Below, one piece after another: positions 17,635 to 26,533 of a stretch of DNA of 64,000 nt. Source of the DNA: Phycisphaerales bacterium (GTDB taxonomy: Bacteria; Planctomycetota; Phycisphaerae; Phycisphaerales; SM1A02). Numbering within the stretch: the first letter of the stretch is position 1; each line of letters begins with the position of its first letter. The notes under the pieces were generated by a model, which was not told the origin of the DNA, did not search any database, and saw only the letters and a program-made list of their open reading frames with translations. The position numbers were made by a program, and so were the translations under genes. The stretch is from contig JABABM010000006.1 in NCBI GenBank assembly GCA_014238205.1, positions 4,303 through 68,302 of the forward strand, given 5' to 3'.

Positions 17635-18176
17635 TGGCCTGTCGATACGCCATTCTGGTACTCCTGCTGGGGCTGCTCTCGGAACCACTCCTGGCTGACG
17701 GCGGCATCGTTCGTGCATCAACTGTCAGTGGCTCGTGGCGACTGACCATGTTCTCCTCCCCGACACCGCTCCGGGCCGGTCCCGTCGACCTGTCGGTGCT
17801 CCTCCAGGACGTGGCAACAGACCAACCAGTGCTCGGCGCAACAGTCAATCTCATGCTTCGACACCCCGACAGCGAACCCCTCCTCGTCGAGGCCACTCGT
17901 GCATCGGCAACGAATCGCCTCCTCTACGCTGCGCTCCTTGAACTGCCGCATGCAGGGACATGGACAATCGATGTCCTGGCGGTCAAAGGCGATCTTGAAG
18001 GACGCCTCCAGGCAGGCCTCGAGGCTGGGCCACCCCTTCCCCGCCTGCTGTCCCTCTGGACATGGCTGGCAATCCCGGGGATCGTGCTCATTGTGTTCGT
18101 GCTCAACCAGTGGCTCATCCGGACACGGCACGATTCACCAGACCCAGAACCAGGCCCAGGCCCAGGATCATCATGA
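17631..18176 (+). CDS. YtkA-like exported protein with C-terminal membrane anchor
   Basis: A 181-residue protein with a signal peptide (MMACRY, a Leu-rich core, ending LLADGG) and a single YtkA-like beta-sandwich (about 35-140). The sandwich has TPLRAGPVDLSVLLQD, VLGATVNLML and HAGTWTIDVLAV, the usual pattern of this domain. One helix lies at about 147-167, followed by a short charged and proline-rich tail. YtkA-like domains often occur near copper-handling and oxidase-assembly genes, and FixH/CcoH proteins resemble them. The ATGA overlap with the CtaG fusion gene indicates translational coupling. A role in oxidase assembly is inference from context. Confidence 0.7.
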   Translation: MMACRYAILVLLLGLLSEPLLADGGIVRASTVSGSWRLTMFSSPTPLRAGPVDLSVLLQDVATDQPVLGATVNLMLRHPDSEPLLVEATRASATNRLLYAALLELPHAGTWTIDVLAVKGDLEGRLQAGLEAGPPLPRLLSLWTWLAIPGIVLIVFVLNQWLIRTRHDSPDPEPGPGPGSS

Positions 18177-18706
18177 ACAAGCAGCCGACGATTGGAAGAG
18201 ATGACACCCAGGTGATTCCTCGCAGGCGGAGTGGGTCTCGAGCCAACAGGTGGATCATGTTCGGCATCATCGGGATCGTCGTGCTCTTCACGCTCCTCCC
18301 GATGATCAAGGCCTGGCAGTCGGTGGGCGCATTCGAACGGGAAGCCCGGGAAGCGGGCTTCACCATGAGAGAAGGTGTCTCACTGGTCGTGGAAGAGAAG
18401 ATCACGAACCCGACGTACCTGCGTGGTTATGAAACAGTTGAAATCCACCAGGGAGCCGATGCCGACATCGCCATTGCAACTGCCTCAGCCATGCTTGACG
18501 GGCGGTACGCCGGATCCGTCTCGTTTCTCGGCAAGGAGCTGACAATCCTGCCCGGGGCCGTCATCGAGGGAGACCTCAACCTTGCCGCAGCCAAGAGCGT
18601 CATCCTCCGTGGCGAGGTCCAGGGCGAGATCATCGGGAATGTCGGGCGGGTGTTTCAGCCTCAAACGGCAGATCCAGCTGCCAACGAGGAGCCTGACGAC
18701 CTATGA
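18173..18706 (+). CDS. membrane protein with bactofilin-like repeat domain
   Basis: A 177-residue protein that I cannot name. Residues 1-27 are basic and cytoplasmic, and a helix spans about 28-46. The C-terminal part has short repeated beta-strands such as LGKELTILPGAVIEGDLNLA and SVILRGEVQGEIIGNVG. This is the pattern of polymer-forming bactofilins, which assemble into filaments. The gene overlaps the YtkA-like gene by four bases (ATGA) and precedes the WXG100 gene by 36 bases, so it is either the last gene of the respiratory operon or the first of the secretion-like cluster. No oxidase function is known for such domains. Confidence 0.55.
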   Translation: MNKQPTIGRDDTQVIPRRRSGSRANRWIMFGIIGIVVLFTLLPMIKAWQSVGAFEREAREAGFTMREGVSLVVEEKITNPTYLRGYETVEIHQGADADIAIATASAMLDGRYAGSVSFLGKELTILPGAVIEGDLNLAAAKSVILRGEVQGEIIGNVGRVFQPQTADPAANEEPDDL

Positions 18707-18742: not shown

Positions 18743-19015
18743 ATGGCCAAGGCCATCGTCGATCCAACTGAACTACGCAAGTTCGCCAATGACCTGAAGC
18801 GATTCAGTGAAGAACTGCATACGCAGATGAACATGCTGAATACCAGGAGCCATGCACTCGGGCAGTCGTGGAAAGACCAGGAACACAGGAAGTTCCTGGA
18901 TGAGTTCGAGCAGGCACTTCGAGTCCTCCTGAAGTTCCAAGTCGTCGTGAAGGAGCACATTCCCTTCCTCCTTCGCAAAGCACAGCGAGCCGAGGATTAC
19001 CTCCAACAGCGTTGA
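18743..19015 (+). CDS. WXG100-family protein (type VII secretion substrate-like)
   Basis: A 90-residue helical protein of the length and pattern of ESAT-6/WXG100 proteins. It has two amphipathic helices joined by a turn with W43-K44-D45 in place of W-x-G, in SWKDQEHRKFLDEF, followed by the conserved hydrophobic spacing of helix 2. There is no signal peptide and no cysteine. WXG100 proteins form helical-hairpin dimers and are exported by, or guide substrates to, an FtsK/SpoIIIE ATPase. The start at 18743 is supported by AAAGGAGA at 18731-18738. An upstream ATG at 18728 would place the ribosome site inside the coding region. It is followed by the coiled-coil gene after a 17-base gap. Confidence 0.8.
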   Translation: MAKAIVDPTELRKFANDLKRFSEELHTQMNMLNTRSHALGQSWKDQEHRKFLDEFEQALRVLLKFQVVVKEHIPFLLRKAQRAEDYLQQR

Positions 19016-19032
19016 CCTCACGGAGTTCCGCC

Positions 19033-19689
19033 ATGGCCGAACAGGCCAATGTTCGTTCCATCGATTCGATAGCCGTCTTTCGGGCGGCGCTCATCAACTA
19101 CATCGAATCCATCCGCGCAACCACGAGTGAAGCCAAGAGCCATGTTCTGCGCATGCAGCACTGGGTCGGTGAAACCCAGAAGCTCGAGTGGACACGCAGG
19201 AAGAAGAAGTGCAACGAGCAACTGGCCAATGCCAGGAGCGACCTTGAACGAGCCAAGATCGCACGACCAGACGCACATCCATCCATGTTCAGCGACCAGG
19301 TCAGGGGAGTTGAGCGAGCCAAGCAGGCCCTGGCCCACAGTGAAAACAAGCTGGTGGCCATCGCTCGCTGGTCTCGTGAACTGGAACGCGAAGGCATGCT
19401 TTTCCAGGGAAGTCTGCAGCGGCTTTCACGAGTCGTCGATGGCGACCTGGAACGATGCACTGCCTGGATGGCTGCGCTGATCGAGCACCTGAATGCCTAT
19501 CTCAAGACTCCACCACCGAAACTTCCCAAGGCAGAAGCGGCTGAAATGAATCAACCAGGTGCACGGCGAGGCGGCACCGAACCGACAAGATCAACAAAGG
19601 GAGATGACGGCAATGAGCCTGACTTCGAATCGAGCCAAACTCCAACGGCTGACGAAGGACCTGACGATCAAGTGGGATCGAACGACTGA
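19033..19689 (+). CDS. coiled-coil protein of the WXG100 cluster
   Basis: A 218-residue protein of unknown function that is mostly alpha-helical. Residues about 10-165 show continuous heptad-like helix: IAVFRAALINYIESIRAT, RRKKKCNEQLANARSDLERA, VERAKQALAHSENKLVAIA. The tail (about 170-218) is disordered and rich in Pro, Gly, Asp and Glu. There is no membrane segment or signal peptide. It sits between the two WXG100-like genes, and its end overlaps the second one by 77 bases in another frame. Its position suggests a chaperone, adaptor or structural partner of the system. The start ATG 19033 removes a poor N-terminal extension and lies just after the preceding stop. Confidence 0.7.
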   Translation: MAEQANVRSIDSIAVFRAALINYIESIRATTSEAKSHVLRMQHWVGETQKLEWTRRKKKCNEQLANARSDLERAKIARPDAHPSMFSDQVRGVERAKQALAHSENKLVAIARWSRELEREGMLFQGSLQRLSRVVDGDLERCTAWMAALIEHLNAYLKTPPPKLPKAEAAEMNQPGARRGGTEPTRSTKGDDGNEPDFESSQTPTADEGPDDQVGSND

Positions 19690-19825
19690 AGACTGGAACG
19701 ATCCCATGAGCAGGCGTTTCCAGACCGAGTTCCTGGAACTTCTCCAGCGCTCCGTGGTCGCATCATCCGAGGCGATGGACACCATGAACGAAGTCCTCAT
19801 GCGTGCCCAGCGGGATTGCGAGTGA
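19613..19825 (+). CDS. second small WXG100-like protein
   Basis: A 70-residue helical protein with a W28-N29-D30 motif between two helices, in EDWNDPMSRRFQTEFLELLQ, closely matching the W-K-D pattern of the upstream WXG100 protein. Its first helix is about 15 residues shorter than usual. The start at 19613 has AAGGGAG about ten bases upstream; ATG 19604 would add three residues. The first 77 bases overlap the coiled-coil gene in a different reading frame, implying coupled translation. It could be the partner subunit in a WXG100 heterodimer, as EsxA/EsxB are, but this is inference. Its small size makes it easy to miss in automated annotation. Confidence 0.68.
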   Translation: MSLTSNRAKLQRLTKDLTIKWDRTTEDWNDPMSRRFQTEFLELLQRSVVASSEAMDTMNEVLMRAQRDCE

Positions 19826-19900
19826 CCCCCCCTCTGACCCTACAATGAAGCAGGAGGCCGCCGCATCACGGGGCCTAGGGGATCAAGAACAACGACCACG

Positions 19901-22900
19901 ATGAACGACTCCCATTCACCCAGCCATGCTGCAGCACTGATCGAGCAACTTCGCTCGCTGGTCAATCGGACCACGACCATGATCTCGAAGGCTGACGAGG
20001 ATCTCTCGTCGATCACTTCGAAGGCTGATGAGAAACGTACCGAAGAAACAACCGCGTTGGAGGAACGCAACACCGAGGCCAGGGAAACCGAGGAGGGGCG
20101 ACATGAGTCCGCCATGACCTCTCTTCAGCAGGAAGTGCAGGAACGCATTGCCCATGCCAAGGAGCAGTATGAAGGCCGCAAGAGTGAAATCAACGAAGAA
20201 GCCGACCAGATGCAGAGCTCGGCTCGAAAGAATCTCAGCGAGCAGGAATGGCTGGCCGAGAGTGTCTTCGAAGCAACCGGCAGCGAACCACGCAAGCGAC
20301 TTGAACTGACTCGAAGGGAAATCAACAGGTACCTTGAACGCCTCGACCAGTTCGAGGAGTCCGAGGCGAAGTTCCGGACACGATGCAAGATGACCTGCGC
20401 GGATGCATCCTCACAACCATCGATCGCCGAAACAAGCAGCGATCTCGAGGATGCACTTGCCTCGATCGGTTCACAGATCGATGTCTGCCAGAACGCTCTC
20501 CGATCGCTCTTCCGACTTCCCGCTCCTCGATGCTTCATCGGTCCGGTGCCGCTGCTGCTGATTCTCCTTGGTGAAGTTCTTGCATGGGCTGGCTTGACTG
20601 CCTATTTCATGCTGTCTGAGCAACAGGAGTTTCTTGATGCCGCGACGGGGTCTCTCTGGTGGAGCCTGCTGAGCCCTGCCGCTGTTCTCATTGCCCTGCT
20701 CCTTGTCAAGCAGATCGCACTCAGGCAGTACCGGTCGCGAAGAAACGTCGTGGCTGAAGAAATCGCCAGGGCTCGAGCCATGTGCGATGACATTGATCGT
20801 GTCGGGGAAGAACAGTGCAACATCGAGGAAGACGCACATCGGAACAAGCGGGACCGGGAACTGAAGCAGGCCAGGGAGACGATCGCCCCGAAGCTTGAAC
20901 AGATCTCACCTCGCCGCGAACGACGACATGAGAAACTCGAGGAGAACTACAAGGAACTTCTTGAGAAGATCAATGAACGCCAGCGGGAGAAGGTCGAGGA
21001 GGAGACTCGGCAACACGACGACATCGTCGGCGTACTGGATGCCGAGGAAGCGGATGCTCGAAGTGCGATCGAATCTTCCTGGAACAGTACTACTGATGCG
21101 GCAAGGACGTCGCATGCGTCCACGGAAGATGAACTCAAGTCCCGCTGGAACGAAGGCACATCGTATTTCCGTGAAGCGATGGATGCGATCGACATCATGT
21201 CCAGGGAGTGCATTCCCGACTGGGACGATGCATCCTGGTCGGACTTCAAGGGCAGGGACACTTTCAATGGACTGATCCAATATGGAAGTTACGACGTCGA
21301 CATGAGCACACTGGACGAGGCAGGCATGCCGCCTCCGGATCGCTTCCCCTGGCCCATGGAAGACAGGTTCACCATGCCGGCCATGCTTCACCTTCCACAT
21401 TCCGGGTCGCTCTACCTGGAGTTCTCGGAGCATGGCAGGGAGCAGGCCGTTCGAGTCCTGCAGGCCTCAATGCTGCGAATGCTTGCATCGATGCCTGCAG
21501 GAAAGATCCGTTTCACCGTGATCGACCCTGTTGGACTTGGGCAGAACTTCGCCGGGTTCATGCACCTGGCCGATCACGAGGAAGGTCGCATCCTCGAGAA
21601 GATCTGGACCGAGTCCCGGCATATCGAGCAGCAGTTGATGGACTTGTCGGAGCACATGGAGACCGTGATCCAGACCTACCTCCGCAACGAGTACGAAACA
21701 ATCGACGAGTACAACATCGCAGCCGGGGAAATTGCCGAACCTTACAGGTACCTCGTAATCGCCGACCTGCCGGTAAACCTCACCGAAACTGCTGGCAAAC
21801 GACTGTCGAGCATCATGCAGACCGGCGCTCGGTGCGGGGTCTACACCCTTGTCGCCTGCGATGCGAGGCAGAACCTGCCCAGAGACGTCCTGCGTGAAGA
21901 TCTCGTGGAGCACAGTGACGTCATCCAGATCGGCGATGGAGGCTGCAAAGCTGCGGATGCCGCCTTGCAACCATTCACGTTGGAACTTGACACACCTCCC
22001 GGGGATGAACAACTGACCAGGATCGTCAAGGCTGCCGGAGATGCCGCGGAACAATCCCGCCGTGTCGAAGTACCCTTCAACATGATCGCCCCGCCTCCCG
22101 AGGAGTACTGGACAGGATCAACCGCCAAGGAGATCCGCGTCCCACTTGGACAGACCGGCGCCACGAGGCACCAGAACCTCGTGCTTGGCCGGGGCACTTC
22201 CCAGCATGCACTCGTTGCAGGCAAGACGGGTTCCGGTAAATCGACGCTGCTGCATGTGCTGATTACGAACCTTGCACTCTGGTACAGCCCGGACGAGATC
22301 GAGTTCCACCTCGTCGACTTCAAGAAGGGCGTGGAGTTCAAGACCTATGCCGAACACGGGCTCCCCCATGCCCGGGTCATCGCGATTGAAAGCGATCGGG
22401 AGTTCGGACTCAGCGTCCTTCAGCGGATTGACCGTGAACTGAAGGAGCGAGGGGAGCGATTCCGCGATCTTGGCGTCCAGGATCTTGCCTCGTTCAGGTC
22501 AAATACGGGCGAATCCTTGCCACGAGTGCTGCTTGTCGTCGATGAATTCCAGGAGCTTTTCGTAGACGACGACAAGTTGTCACAGGATGCCGCACTCCTG
22601 CTCGACCGCATCGTGCGGCAGGGTCGTGCATTCGGCATTCACGCACTGCTTGGCTCACAGACACTCGATGGCTCCTATTCTCTGGCAAGAAGCACCCTCG
22701 GACAGATGGGCGTGCGGATTGCCCTGCAATGCACCGAGGCGGATTCCTACCTCATCCTCAGCGAAGAGAATGCGGCAGCAAGGCTCCTGGAGCGACCTGG
22801 CGAAGCAATCTACAACGACGCCGGGGGGAAGGTCGAGGGAAACAACTCCTTCCAGGTCTGCTGGCTTGATGACTCGGTACGGGACCACTATCTCGACGTG

Positions 22901-23830
22901 GTCCACTCCCTTGTAAAGGAACGGAACCTGGACCTTCCGACCCCCTTCGTCTTTGAAGGAAACATCCCGGCTGATCTGACCGAGTGCCGACTGCTTGAAA
23001 CCGCCCTCGCAGAACAGCCGACACATACACCTGCTTCGATCAACTGCTGGGCCGGCGATGCCATCGCCATCAAGGACCCAACGGCCTTCACACTCCAGTT
23101 GCAGAGTGGCTCGAACCTCATGGTCGTCGGCCAACGCGAAGAGTCTGCAACAGCGCTCTTCATGGCATCGATGCTCTCGGCTGCGGCACAATCACCACCA
23201 GTGGCTTCAACCGGCGAGCCTGGAGTGCGATTCGTCATACTCGACGGGCTTGCCTCCGATTCCGATCTCCATGGCCGACTCGAATCCCTGGGAACAAGCC
23301 TGCCCTACGCCTGTACGGCTGGGACACATCGGGAGTCCAGGGAGATCCTGAACGAACTTGGCGCTATTCTCGAGGAACGCAGGTCCACCGGCGAAGCCTC
23401 CGGGCCGAGGACCATCGTGATCCTTCATGGGCTGCACAGGCTCAGGGAACTTCGAAGACCGGAAGATGACTTCTCCTTCTCGATGCGTGATGAAAATGAA
23501 CCTGCCAGCCCCCATGCCATCCTGATCGAACTTCTCAAGGATGGACCGGCACTTGGCATCCATGTTCTCACCTGGGTCGATACGCTGAACAACCTCAACA
23601 GGACACTCGATCGAAGCAGCCAGCGGGAATTCGAGATGCGAATCCTCTACCAGATGAGTGCAAACGATTCATCACAATTGATTGATTCACCTGCTGCAGG
23701 CGGTCTTGGGCTCCAGCGAACCCTGTTCTGCAGTGAAGATACTGGAACCGAGGAAAAGTACAGGCCCTGGGCCATGCCCGAAGAGGCCTGGCTGAATGCT
23801 GCGGTCGAACGACTTCGTACACGGCCCTGA
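19901..23830 (+). CDS. FtsK/EssC-like ATPase with coiled coils, core of a type VII-like system
   Basis: A 1309-residue membrane ATPase. Residues 20-200 are charged coiled coil. Two helices at about 212-237 and 252-272 anchor it, and a second coiled coil runs about 280-410. Three FtsK/SpoIIIE-like ATPase domains follow. The middle one is intact, with Walker A GKTGSGKST (774-782), Walker B VVDEF (D881, E882), and an LLGSQTLDG sensor. The first lacks a P-loop, and the third has a degenerate one (GQREESAT, from 1077). In EssC/EccC of Firmicutes and Actinobacteria the chain also has tandem ATPase domains that push WXG100 proteins across the membrane. The FHA domains of EssC are absent here; coiled coils replace them. 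The start is the first ATG after the gap. Confidence 0.85.
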   Translation: MNDSHSPSHAAALIEQLRSLVNRTTTMISKADEDLSSITSKADEKRTEETTALEERNTEARETEEGRHESAMTSLQQEVQERIAHAKEQYEGRKSEINEEADQMQSSARKNLSEQEWLAESVFEATGSEPRKRLELTRREINRYLERLDQFEESEAKFRTRCKMTCADASSQPSIAETSSDLEDALASIGSQIDVCQNALRSLFRLPAPRCFIGPVPLLLILLGEVLAWAGLTAYFMLSEQQEFLDAATGSLWWSLLSPAAVLIALLLVKQIALRQYRSRRNVVAEEIARARAMCDDIDRVGEEQCNIEEDAHRNKRDRELKQARETIAPKLEQISPRRERRHEKLEENYKELLEKINERQREKVEEETRQHDDIVGVLDAEEADARSAIESSWNSTTDAARTSHASTEDELKSRWNEGTSYFREAMDAIDIMSRECIPDWDDASWSDFKGRDTFNGLIQYGSYDVDMSTLDEAGMPPPDRFPWPMEDRFTMPAMLHLPHSGSLYLEFSEHGREQAVRVLQASMLRMLASMPAGKIRFTVIDPVGLGQNFAGFMHLADHEEGRILEKIWTESRHIEQQLMDLSEHMETVIQTYLRNEYETIDEYNIAAGEIAEPYRYLVIADLPVNLTETAGKRLSSIMQTGARCGVYTLVACDARQNLPRDVLREDLVEHSDVIQIGDGGCKAADAALQPFTLELDTPPGDEQLTRIVKAAGDAAEQSRRVEVPFNMIAPPPEEYWTGSTAKEIRVPLGQTGATRHQNLVLGRGTSQHALVAGKTGSGKSTLLHVLITNLALWYSPDEIEFHLVDFKKGVEFKTYAEHGLPHARVIAIESDREFGLSVLQRIDRELKERGERFRDLGVQDLASFRSNTGESLPRVLLVVDEFQELFVDDDKLSQDAALLLDRIVRQGRAFGIHALLGSQTLDGSYSLARSTLGQMGVRIALQCTEADSYLILSEENAAARLLERPGEAIYNDAGGKVEGNNSFQVCWLDDSVRDHYLDVVHSLVKERNLDLPTPFVFEGNIPADLTECRLLETALAEQPTHTPASINCWAGDAIAIKDPTAFTLQLQSGSNLMVVGQREESATALFMASMLSAAAQSPPVASTGEPGVRFVILDGLASDSDLHGRLESLGTSLPYACTAGTHRESREILNELGAILEERRSTGEASGPRTIVILHGLHRLRELRRPEDDFSFSMRDENEPASPHAILIELLKDGPALGIHVLTWVDTLNNLNRTLDRSSQREFEMRILYQMSANDSSQLIDSPAAGGLGLQRTLFCSEDTGTEEKYRPWAMPEEAWLNAAVERLRTRP

Positions 23831-23959: not shown

Positions 23960-26533
23960 ATGAAGCAAGCGGTGGCCCTGACCATCCTGGCATGTACGAC
24001 ATGTGTCTTCGGCAACAATGACGAGACATGGTGGTCGTGCATCGCACTTGAGAAACCAGCCGTACCTGGATCGAACATGGACGAGCACCCCATCGATCGG
24101 TTCCTCGCCATCGAGATGGAGTCCCTCGGGCTGACCCCATCCAATGAAGCCGACGCTCGTACCCTTGTACGCCGTGCAACGTATGACCTGACCGGCCTCC
24201 CGGCTTCACTTGAGTCGATCAAGGACTTTGAAGACGATGATGATGCAACCGCTTGGAACGCATGCATCGAACGACTTCTCGAGTCCGAGCAGTACGGGGT
24301 CAAGTGGGGAAGGCACTGGCTTGACCTGGTCCGCTGGGCAGAGACGAACTCCTTCGAACGCGACAGTCGCAAACCAGCCGCATGGCGGTACCGCGACTGG
24401 GTGATTGATGCCTTCAATTCGGACATGCCCTATGACCGCTTCATTCTCGAGCAACTGGCTGGAGATGAACTTCCAGACCGATCCCTTTCGTCGATGATCG
24501 CCACCGGGTACTACAGGCTCGGCATCTGGGATGACGAGCCGACTGACATTCCGCTTGCACAATACGACGACCTTGACGGGATTCTCGACACCACCTCACG
24601 AGTGATGCTTGGAATGTCCATGGGCTGCGCCAGGTGCCATGACCACAAGAAGGATCCAATACCCCAGGTCGATTACTATCGAATGCTGGCCTTCTTTCAC
24701 GGCATCACACCGTACAAGTCGACCCCCGGAAACTCGATCCAGGAGATTGACTTCCTCAAGACGGTTCCGAACAACCTCGACAACCCGGACATCGATCTCC
24801 ACCGCGAGCAGGCCTGGAACGAGGAACGCACCCGACTTGCCAACTCGATCATCGAGTCACATGCAGGCATTGTGAACTCGCCGGCGCCGCCCGTGGAACG
24901 AAATGGGCTGATCCTTGCCCTCGAGGATGGCTCACGGGAAATCGAAACCCCGGTTGCCGATGATTTCACCGTCGAGTTCCAGTTCAAGACCACTGAAGAG
25001 TGCCCGGGAGATCATCATCGAAACTGGTGGACCGGCAGCGGACTGATCAGCGCCGAGGTCCCGGGAATCGTCAATGACTGGGGCATCACGCTCCAGGGCA
25101 ACGGATACATCGTTGCCGGCACGGGAAATCCGGAGCGAAGCATCTCCTCCGCCGGCGGGTACAACGATGGGAGATGGCACCACGTGGCCTTTGCCCGTGA
25201 TCGCGAATCCGGGATCTTCACCCTGTACATCGATGGTGAACCCGTTGCCTCGGAAACAGGATCGCAGGAACCACTGGATGCGTCACCTGTTGTCCTGGTA
25301 GGCGAGCTGTTGCCTGGACGGAACGTCTTCAAGGGAGCAATACGTGACGTTCGATTCTGGGATCGCGTGCTCCCTCATCGGGGAATCGTCGACCTGGCCC
25401 TGGGACTCTCCCCCCTCCCCTCCGCCCCCGGATATCCAGAGTACGAAGTACTCGTCGAAAAGTTCATGGAGCTCCATCGCCCTGTTCCACTGACGACGGA
25501 TGTCCTGTGTGTCATGGAACCGGATACAACGCCTCCAGAAACCCGAGTGCTTGACCGGGGAAACCCGGCTGCGCAACTGGAAGTCGTTGAAGTCGGGTTC
25601 CCCGGCATGCTCGGTGGAGGAGAACCCGGGTCGATCAAACCAACCGATGAATCCTCTGGACGAAGACTTGCATTGGCTCGGTGGATCAGCGATCCGAACA
25701 ATATTCGCACAAGCCGGGTGCTCGTAAATCGCATCTGGCAGCACCATTTCGGTACCGGGCTCGTCCCGACCCCCAATGACTTCGGCATGCTGGGACTTCC
25801 TCCGACACACCCGGCGCTGCTCGACTGGCTGGCCTGCGAGTTCATCGAGCGTGGCATGTCCATCAAGGAGATGCACCGCCTGATCATGACTTCCAAGGCA
25901 TACAGACGATCGGGAAGCCCAGTAGGTGATGCACGTTCTCGAGACCCGCTCAATATCGCTCTCAGCTGGTACCCGATGCAACGACTGACCGCCGAAGAAC
26001 TGCGTGACTCCCTTCTTGCAGTCAATGGAACATTGAACCTGGAACTTGGGGGGCCATAGATCTATTCGAAGATGCCTGCAGAGGTGCTCGCGACGTCATC
26101 GAGACCAGATGCGGCATGGGGCCACTCCACGCCTGAACAGGCAGCACGCCGTTCCGTCTACATCCACTTGAAGCGATCGCTCCTGGACCCGATGCTGACT
26201 GCATTCGACCTGGCCGATACTGATTCGACCTGCCCCGTCCGGTTCGTCACCTCGCAGCCCACCCAGGCCCTGACGATGCTCAACAGCGATTTCATCAACA
26301 CCCAGGCTCACCTGCTGGCCGACAGGCTCCGGGCTGAATACAGCACCTCCGAAGAACGTGTCACGGGAGGCATCGAACTGGCTCTCTGCCGCACAGCGAA
26401 CATGACCGAGGTCCGGCAGGGGCTTCTGCTCCTTGAGGAATTCCAGGAAGCCGACGGCCTTGACCCGGGACTTGCTCTCGATCGATACTGCCTCCTCCTG
26501 CTGAACCTCAACGAGTTCATCTACGTAGATTGA
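23960..26533 (+). pseudogene. DUF1549-LamG-DUF1553 secreted protein interrupted by an in-frame TAG
   Basis: A planctomycete-type secreted protein of about 857 codons if read through. The signal peptide ends near CVFGN. DUF1549 (about 45-255) includes the CARCHDHK motif, which could bind haem c. A LamG/concanavalin-like insert (about 325-490) has GRWHHVAFARDR and FTLYIDGEPVAS. DUF1553 follows, with ARWISDPNN and RVLVNRIWQHHFG. A TAG at 26057-26059 stops the frame at LELGGP, exactly where relatives continue with Ser-Val/Ile-(Tyr/Phe). Four codons later the same frame resumes with MPAEVLATSSRPDAAWG, so there is no frameshift, only one base change such as TCG to TAG. The remaining 157 codons look fully conserved. 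Either a recent nonsense mutation, a sequencing error, or read-through explains it. Confidence 0.82.

Follow-up and report, generated by a model that had tools for sequence, protein, structure and literature searches.

An EccC/EssC-type ATPase co-encoded with a WXG100 protein marks a type VII secretion system (T7SS) of any type, and both are found in the locus described here, a four-gene cluster (wxg1, cc2, wxg3, and an ATPase gene) in a 64,000-nucleotide stretch of contig JABABM010000006.1 from a Phycisphaerales bacterium (hereafter, the window). The ATPases of T7SSa, T7SSb, and T7SSc–j have four NTPase domains (PMC11217815). EccB, EccD, EccE, and mycosin are the partners in T7SSa, and EssA, EssB, and EsaA those in T7SSb; nearly all of the new subtypes possess a ubiquitin-like protein, TsxB (Garrett et al. 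2024, PMC11217815). T7SS cases in Gram-negative bacteria were described in a 2023 review as being without functional confirmation (PMC10765036). Zhang et al. (2012) reported, as mobile T7SS, a WXG protein with an ATPase of three HerA/FtsK domains, the middle one active, in planctomycetes and verrucomicrobia (PMC3482391, table footnote 6). In Helicobacter pylori, the WRD hairpin of HP0062 and its FtsK-type neighbor were noted in a 2012 review (PMC3397514), and a pan-genome paper regarded the HP0062/HP0066-type genes as a minimal T7SS set (PMC4978471). The CoCoNuT paper described an ATPase of a similar type, with the central of three domains active and no transmembrane (TM) helix, together with two WXG100-like proteins (PMC11090510). 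Because of the Zhang, CoCoNuT, and H. pylori reports, the kind of system is already known; what is new here is a chromosomal, apparently vertical, mostly membrane-anchored, and cargo-poor form, with strict co-retention of WXG1 and the ATPase.

A preliminary description of the window, made from the sequence alone, had reported four genes in a row that encode two WXG100-like proteins with W-K-D and W-N-D turns, a coiled-coil protein, and a 1309-residue ATPase. All four genes indeed lie on the plus strand at 18743–23830 (Table 1), and the turns are W43-K-D45 in WXG1 and W28-N-D30 in WXG3. The spacing (a gap of 17 nt between wxg1 and cc2, an overlap of 77 nt between cc2 and wxg3, and a gap of 75 nt before the ATPase gene) would fit one transcript, and a Shine-Dalgarno-like AAAGGAG stands immediately 5' of wxg1. 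The order was kept in 62 of 69 loci of sufficient length from Planctomycetota, Verrucomicrobiota, and Lentisphaerota, so that chance is excluded as its origin; the arrangement proposed for comparison across planctomycete genomes is thus conserved there, and in verrucomicrobia too. The four genes are also clustered in the cultured Verrucomicrobium sp. BvORR106 (L105). We give an even chance to the view that the cluster is a chromosomal, membrane-anchored unit of WXG100 proteins and a three-domain EccC-like ATPase, by which a helical complex is exported or assembled in a housekeeping-type role.

Profile comparisons show WXG1 to be a true member of the WXG100 family, with a predicted hairpin fold. 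It passed the Pfam WXG100 profile (PF06013; E = 1.1e-6, 29.2 bits against a cut-off of 27.3), and the same profile matched all 50 aligned orthologues (best E = 9e-12). The turn in the orthologues is W-x-D (WRD in 34, WQD in 11, WKD in 3, and others in 2) and never W-x-G. When the family profile was compared with the PDB, the nearest structure was H. pylori HP0062 (3fx7; E = 2.5e-12), followed by EsxB and Staphylococcus aureus EsxA structures; HP0062, which shares the W-R-D type of turn and has an FtsK partner gene, is the closest solved relative of WXG1. The mean column identity was 66% for WXG1, compared with 33% for WXG3 and 30% for CC2. Such slow change speaks for WXG1 as a stoichiometric partner of the motor and against a fast-evolving effector.

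WXG3 is shown by the family profile, and only through it, to be a probable shortened relative in the WXG100 superfamily. This placement is based on weak single Pfam WXG100 matches in 11 of the 52 family members and on the recovery of WXG3 in orthologous loci by the iterated WXG1 profile (E = 1e-11 to 1e-20). W21, W28, and D30 are invariant in the 52 members. The WXG3 of the window, submitted alone, gave no Pfam WXG100 match, and thus the WXG100 assignment of the two small proteins stood directly for WXG1 and not for WXG3. A cysteine lies two to a few residues from the C-terminus of WXG3 in 48 of the 52 members, the remaining tail being variable; in three loci (L074, L101, and L155) the cysteine is absent and a tail of about 20 residues (APYGM.RSR) has been gained. 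A link between this cysteine and the TM helices of the ATPase had a nominal p of 5e-4 and is not claimed, because it reflects only about two independent losses of the helices.

The AlphaFold2 model of CC2 consists of two helices (residues 10–77 and 83–158) at a pLDDT of about 98, after which come some 58 residues of disordered, acidic tail. Profile searches, including that with the LXG profile, found no known domain. Assignment of CC2 to LXG or another known fold was rejected, since Foldseek returned only generic coiled coils at E > 0.02, with TelA-LXG at only 0.15. Most of the CC2 proteins in the Planctomycetes-Verrucomicrobia-Chlamydiae (PVC) group end in a disordered tail without a domain. 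Four of them, from planctomycetes, carry a C-terminal Imm33-like domain (PF24719) that scored over the Pfam cut-off, and a fifth showed weak similarity. These C-termini, together with the nuclease found at the same place in plasmid relatives, suggest that CC2 may stand at a cargo position. CC2 has weak sequence homology to the cargo proteins, with a best E of 1e-5 among a set of 33 proteins.

Profiles and a structural prediction show the ATPase to be a putative EccC/FtsK-type motor with two predicted membrane helices and one presumably active domain. A coiled coil (residues 1–205), TM helices at 210–228 and 250–275, and a second coiled coil (276–420) precede a degenerate RecA-like domain (430–734), the active D1 (735–1010), and a degenerate D2 (1045–1309). 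FtsK_SpoIIIE (PF01580) matched only at residues 746–920, and the Pfam scan of the ATPase found neither an FHA domain nor an FtsK gamma domain. The Walker A motif (G774-x-TGSGKS781) and D881–E882 are invariant across 113 orthologues and the P-loop is absent from domains 1 and 3; accordingly, the proposal that only the middle domain keeps Walker A and B held in 113 of 113. The NCBIfam scores (EccCa 113 bits, EssC 86, EccCb 84) were all under the equivalog cut-offs. In the predicted model of residues 425–1309 (pLDDT 86.8), three RecA-like domains are seen, not the four NTPase domains (DUF/D0 plus D1–D3) of T7SS. Its best fold match in the PDB was the cytoplasmic region of Thermomonospora curvata EccC (E = 3.8e-32), while single FtsK motors matched at about 3e-15. 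The two TM-like helices, present in 103 of the 113 orthologues, are placed relative to the motor as in EccC/EssC.

The preliminary description had set the active middle domain against the characterized EccC proteins, in which the first ATPase domain is catalytic. No such conflict was found. In HMM-HMM comparison with three EccC sequences, the middle domain scored 162 against D1, 115 against D2, and 66 against D3, and this top score, together with the preference for EccCa over EccCb, identifies it as the likely counterpart of D1. The last domain scored 48 against D2 and 41 against D3. The degenerate first domain had no significant match to the EccC domains, and its correspondence to the DUF domain of EccC is suggested by the domain order and by a YukB alignment that begins upstream of D1. 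The simplest reading of these comparisons is that the ATPase would comprise a DUF-position domain, D1, and D2, with D3 missing. An inversion of the EccC logic was thus rejected.

The host genome (2.44 Mb) has Phycisphaerales affinity, and its closest named relative is a metagenome-assembled genome from the Phycisphaerae, whose ATPase is 80% identical. The ATPase is present in single copy in 34 of 37 genomes of the host's family, two family genomes showing it in two pieces, in five of 24 sampled other genomes of the order, and in 41 of 294 genomes across the planctomycete phylum; a scan of named genomes added Verrucomicrobiota and one Lentisphaerae genome. WXG1 was found in 40 of the 41 planctomycete genomes with the ATPase and in none of the other 253 (Fisher 1e-48, uncorrected for phylogeny). 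In one planctomycete family and in one further genome (G300), the small genes are present and unlinked from the ATPase gene, lying megabases apart, and in five of these genomes the unlinked site holds WXG1 only. Because WXG1 is retained even where it is unlinked, and sometimes alone at its site, the ATPase and WXG1 form an invariant pair. In the ATPase tree, the PVC sequences formed one group, with the Verrucomicrobiota as one branch, and the plasmid relatives stood outside on long branches whose placement is unsure; in this sample, plasmid copies occurred only outside the PVC group. A sequence titled Alphaproteobacteria (L066, PBMH01000006.1) fell firmly with the Phycisphaerales and is probably a mislabelled bin. 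The single copy, the local synteny among close relatives, and the PVC grouping do not support mobility of the PVC form, which appears to be vertically inherited.

The relatives on plasmids differ in their cargo. A search of plasmids recovered relatives that span the motor region in full or nearly so, from Rhodococcus, Caballeronia, Deinococcus, and Helicobacter (E = 1e-75 to 1e-167), and a WXG1-like gene lay near the ATPase gene in four of five (E = 3e-10 or better). On the plasmid of Helicobacter sp. NHP19-012, WXG1 is followed by a helical protein of 340 aa with a C-terminal WHH nuclease domain, then by a SUKH-1 immunity protein, a 77-aa protein in the place of WXG3, and the ATPase, the motor region of which was matched at E = 1e-75. 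Unlike the form with CC2, this version thus combines an 823-aa ATPase without a clear TM helix with a nuclease/immunity pair. On the Caballeronia plasmid pSBC2-5, a WXG100 protein, a coiled-coil protein, two small proteins, and the ATPase are encoded in this order, adjoined by CARF DUF1887, VWA, PP2C phosphatase, and kinase genes, a setting that, from its gene content, looks like a TerY-P-like defense island. The C-terminal region of the Caballeronia coiled-coil protein appeared nuclease-like by eye, with a D...ExK-like pattern, and had no Pfam match. In the CoCoNuT-linked systems, as in the present cluster, the ATPase has a long coiled coil at its N-terminus and is accompanied by two WXG100-like proteins and a coiled-coil protein; they differ in that TM helices are absent, a restriction-type nuclease is fused to the coiled-coil protein, and the genes stand in TerY-P defense operons (PMC11090510). 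The mobile WXG/YueA-like systems of Zhang et al. likewise share the WXG protein and the ATPase with activity in the middle domain only, whereas the planctomycete form is chromosomal, single-copy, and near-universal in one family, groups by phylum in the tree, and has a pair of TM helices and a CC2 that is mostly without cargo.

Table 1. Positions of the cluster features in the window and of comparison loci (locus coordinates for entries with an L number)
Feature	Location	Strand	Remarks
wxg1	18743..19015	+	90 aa, WXG100 protein, hairpin turn W43-K-D45
cc2	19033..19689	+	218 aa, long helical hairpin, disordered acidic tail
wxg3	19613..19825	+	70 aa, short WXG100-like, W21, W28-N-D30; start ATG 19613 (or 19604)
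EccC/FtsK-type ATPase gene	19901..23830	+	1309 aa
Walker A, ATPase middle domain	22220..22243	+	residues 774-781, GKTGSGKS; G, T, GSGKS invariant in 113 orthologues
Walker B acidic pair D881-E882 of ATPase	22541..22546	+	invariant in 113 orthologues
ATPases without both TM helices	L074 9956-13663; L101 9254-12952; L155 9504-13199; L135 2898-6974
CC2 with Imm33-like (PF24719) domain	L145 7904-8965; L148 13214-14230; L150 7847-8947; L067 4890-5960		immunity-type domain fused to hairpin
Helicobacter sp. NHP19-012 plasmid cassette	L206 4134-8536		WHH nuclease and SUKH-1 immunity gene where CC2 would stand
Caballeronia plasmid pSBC2-5 cassette	L208 2955-14771		flanked by two VWA genes

The standard T7SS partners listed as missing in the preliminary description (EssA, EssB, EsaA, EccB, EccD, EccE, and mycosin) are absent from the four-gene cluster. 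Searches of the whole genome gave no match for YukD/EsaB or LXG, so the substrates of the LXG type that had been suggested to lie elsewhere were not found. Those for YukC/EssB gave sub-threshold, partial-profile matches only, inside longer proteins, which we read as probably the kinase-like part of YukC. A search for EccB, made without a positive control, found no match; EccD, EccE, and mycosin were not searched genome-wide. The proposed minimal system therefore does differ from the Firmicutes and Actinobacteria types in being without the other membrane parts of T7SSa and T7SSb, those that were tested for; it is not confined to planctomycetes, being found in verrucomicrobia as well, and has been known since 2012. 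The further proposal of a secretion or envelope system holds as far as the unit of WXG100 and FtsK/EccC-type proteins, and secretion itself remains inference.

In the mechanism that we envisage, the ATPase would sit in the inner membrane as a hexamer. WXG1, WXG3, and CC2 would assemble into a helical substrate or targeting complex that docks on the motor, as EsxAB or LXG-Lap complexes do, and ATP hydrolysis in the middle domain may then drive this complex across, or assemble it at, the inner membrane. Export by the cluster is likely. The mostly cargo-free CC2, the strikingly conserved WXG1, and the apparent vertical inheritance give the planctomycete version a domesticated look, and its role may be a steady one in the cell envelope or in housekeeping, not that of a fast-evolving weapon.

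Several points weigh against this proposal of a membrane-anchored exporter. No other membrane component was found; the YxxxD/E export motif was seen in none of 50 WXG1 and none of 52 WXG3 proteins (last 25 residues); and the homology of CC2 to the Helicobacter cargo protein is not significant (E = 4.5), the correspondence resting mainly on position. We know of no secretion assay for any member. In addition, four PVC orthologues (L155, L074, L101, and L135) have cleanly lost the TM helices with the rest of the cluster intact, and clear TM helices are lacking in the plasmid relatives, as are TM helices in the CoCoNuT homologues (PMC11090510). These losses and absences make an intracellular machine a serious rival, in which the ATPase ring and WXG adaptors would load, unfold, or release CC2 (a nuclease in the mobile relatives) in stress response or defense. 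The entire cluster kept by the TM-less orthologues, the missing export motif, the VWA/PP2C/kinase/CARF island around one plasmid relative, and the tie of the CoCoNuT-linked homologues to restriction systems are in keeping with such a machine. We nevertheless regard it as unlikely, in view of the helix pair retained at the EccC/EssC-like position in most of the PVC orthologues and of the PVC loci, in which no defense-type neighbors recur.

A T7SS-type delivery of antibacterial toxins, with CC2 as the cargo carrier and the toxins encoded elsewhere or lost, appears quite improbable. The Helicobacter nuclease and SUKH immunity gene between WXG1 and the 77-aa gene, the D...ExK-like region in Caballeronia, and the four Imm33-like C-termini in PVC bacteria point toward it; the mostly disordered and domain-free CC2 tails, the non-recurrence of immunity genes nearby, the failure to find an LXG protein in the genome, and the slow evolution of WXG1 point away. 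An FtsK/SpoIIIE-like DNA translocase for chromosome segregation or budding, which the FtsK_SpoIIIE domain and the unusual division of planctomycetes might bring to mind, is highly improbable given the separate canonical FtsK-type protein of this genome (an 828-aa frame at C28, 215 bits), which led us to reject the ATPase as the chromosomal FtsK, the lack of a gamma domain in the Pfam scan, EccC as the best fold match, and the strict WXG100 partnership, which extends to related genomes. Matches to SspH and mad8 in a defense database reflected the shared FtsK domain only.

No further conserved neighbors were found beyond close relatives. Directly upstream of wxg1, at 18152–18706 of the window, a bactofilin-like protein with one hydrophobic helix is encoded (Pfam 20.5 bits, under the cut-off of 27.9), and a similarly placed protein occurs in several close relatives. 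Downstream, 23960–26059 and 26072–26533 make up what we take to be a DUF1549/DUF1553-type (PSD1-like) gene, apparently interrupted by a frameshift near 26060.

The strength of the case lies in comparative evidence, and systems of this kind are experimentally uncharacterized. Returning to the membrane-anchored exporter, we propose tentatively, at somewhat less than an even chance, that the cluster represents an ancient, vertically inherited T7SS-like core in diderm PVC bacteria, either domesticated from or ancestral to the mobile WXG-ATPase toxin cassettes, which would need only the ATPase, two WXG100-type proteins, and one helical hairpin, and would serve the envelope in a housekeeping role and not in toxin delivery. 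As a small, strictly conserved four-gene unit with one-to-one retention of WXG1 and the ATPase, it is a clean genetic target. It bears on whether one motor domain suffices for a type VII-like motor that lacks any other membrane partner, and on the purpose of a T7SS-like version that is apparently not a weapon.

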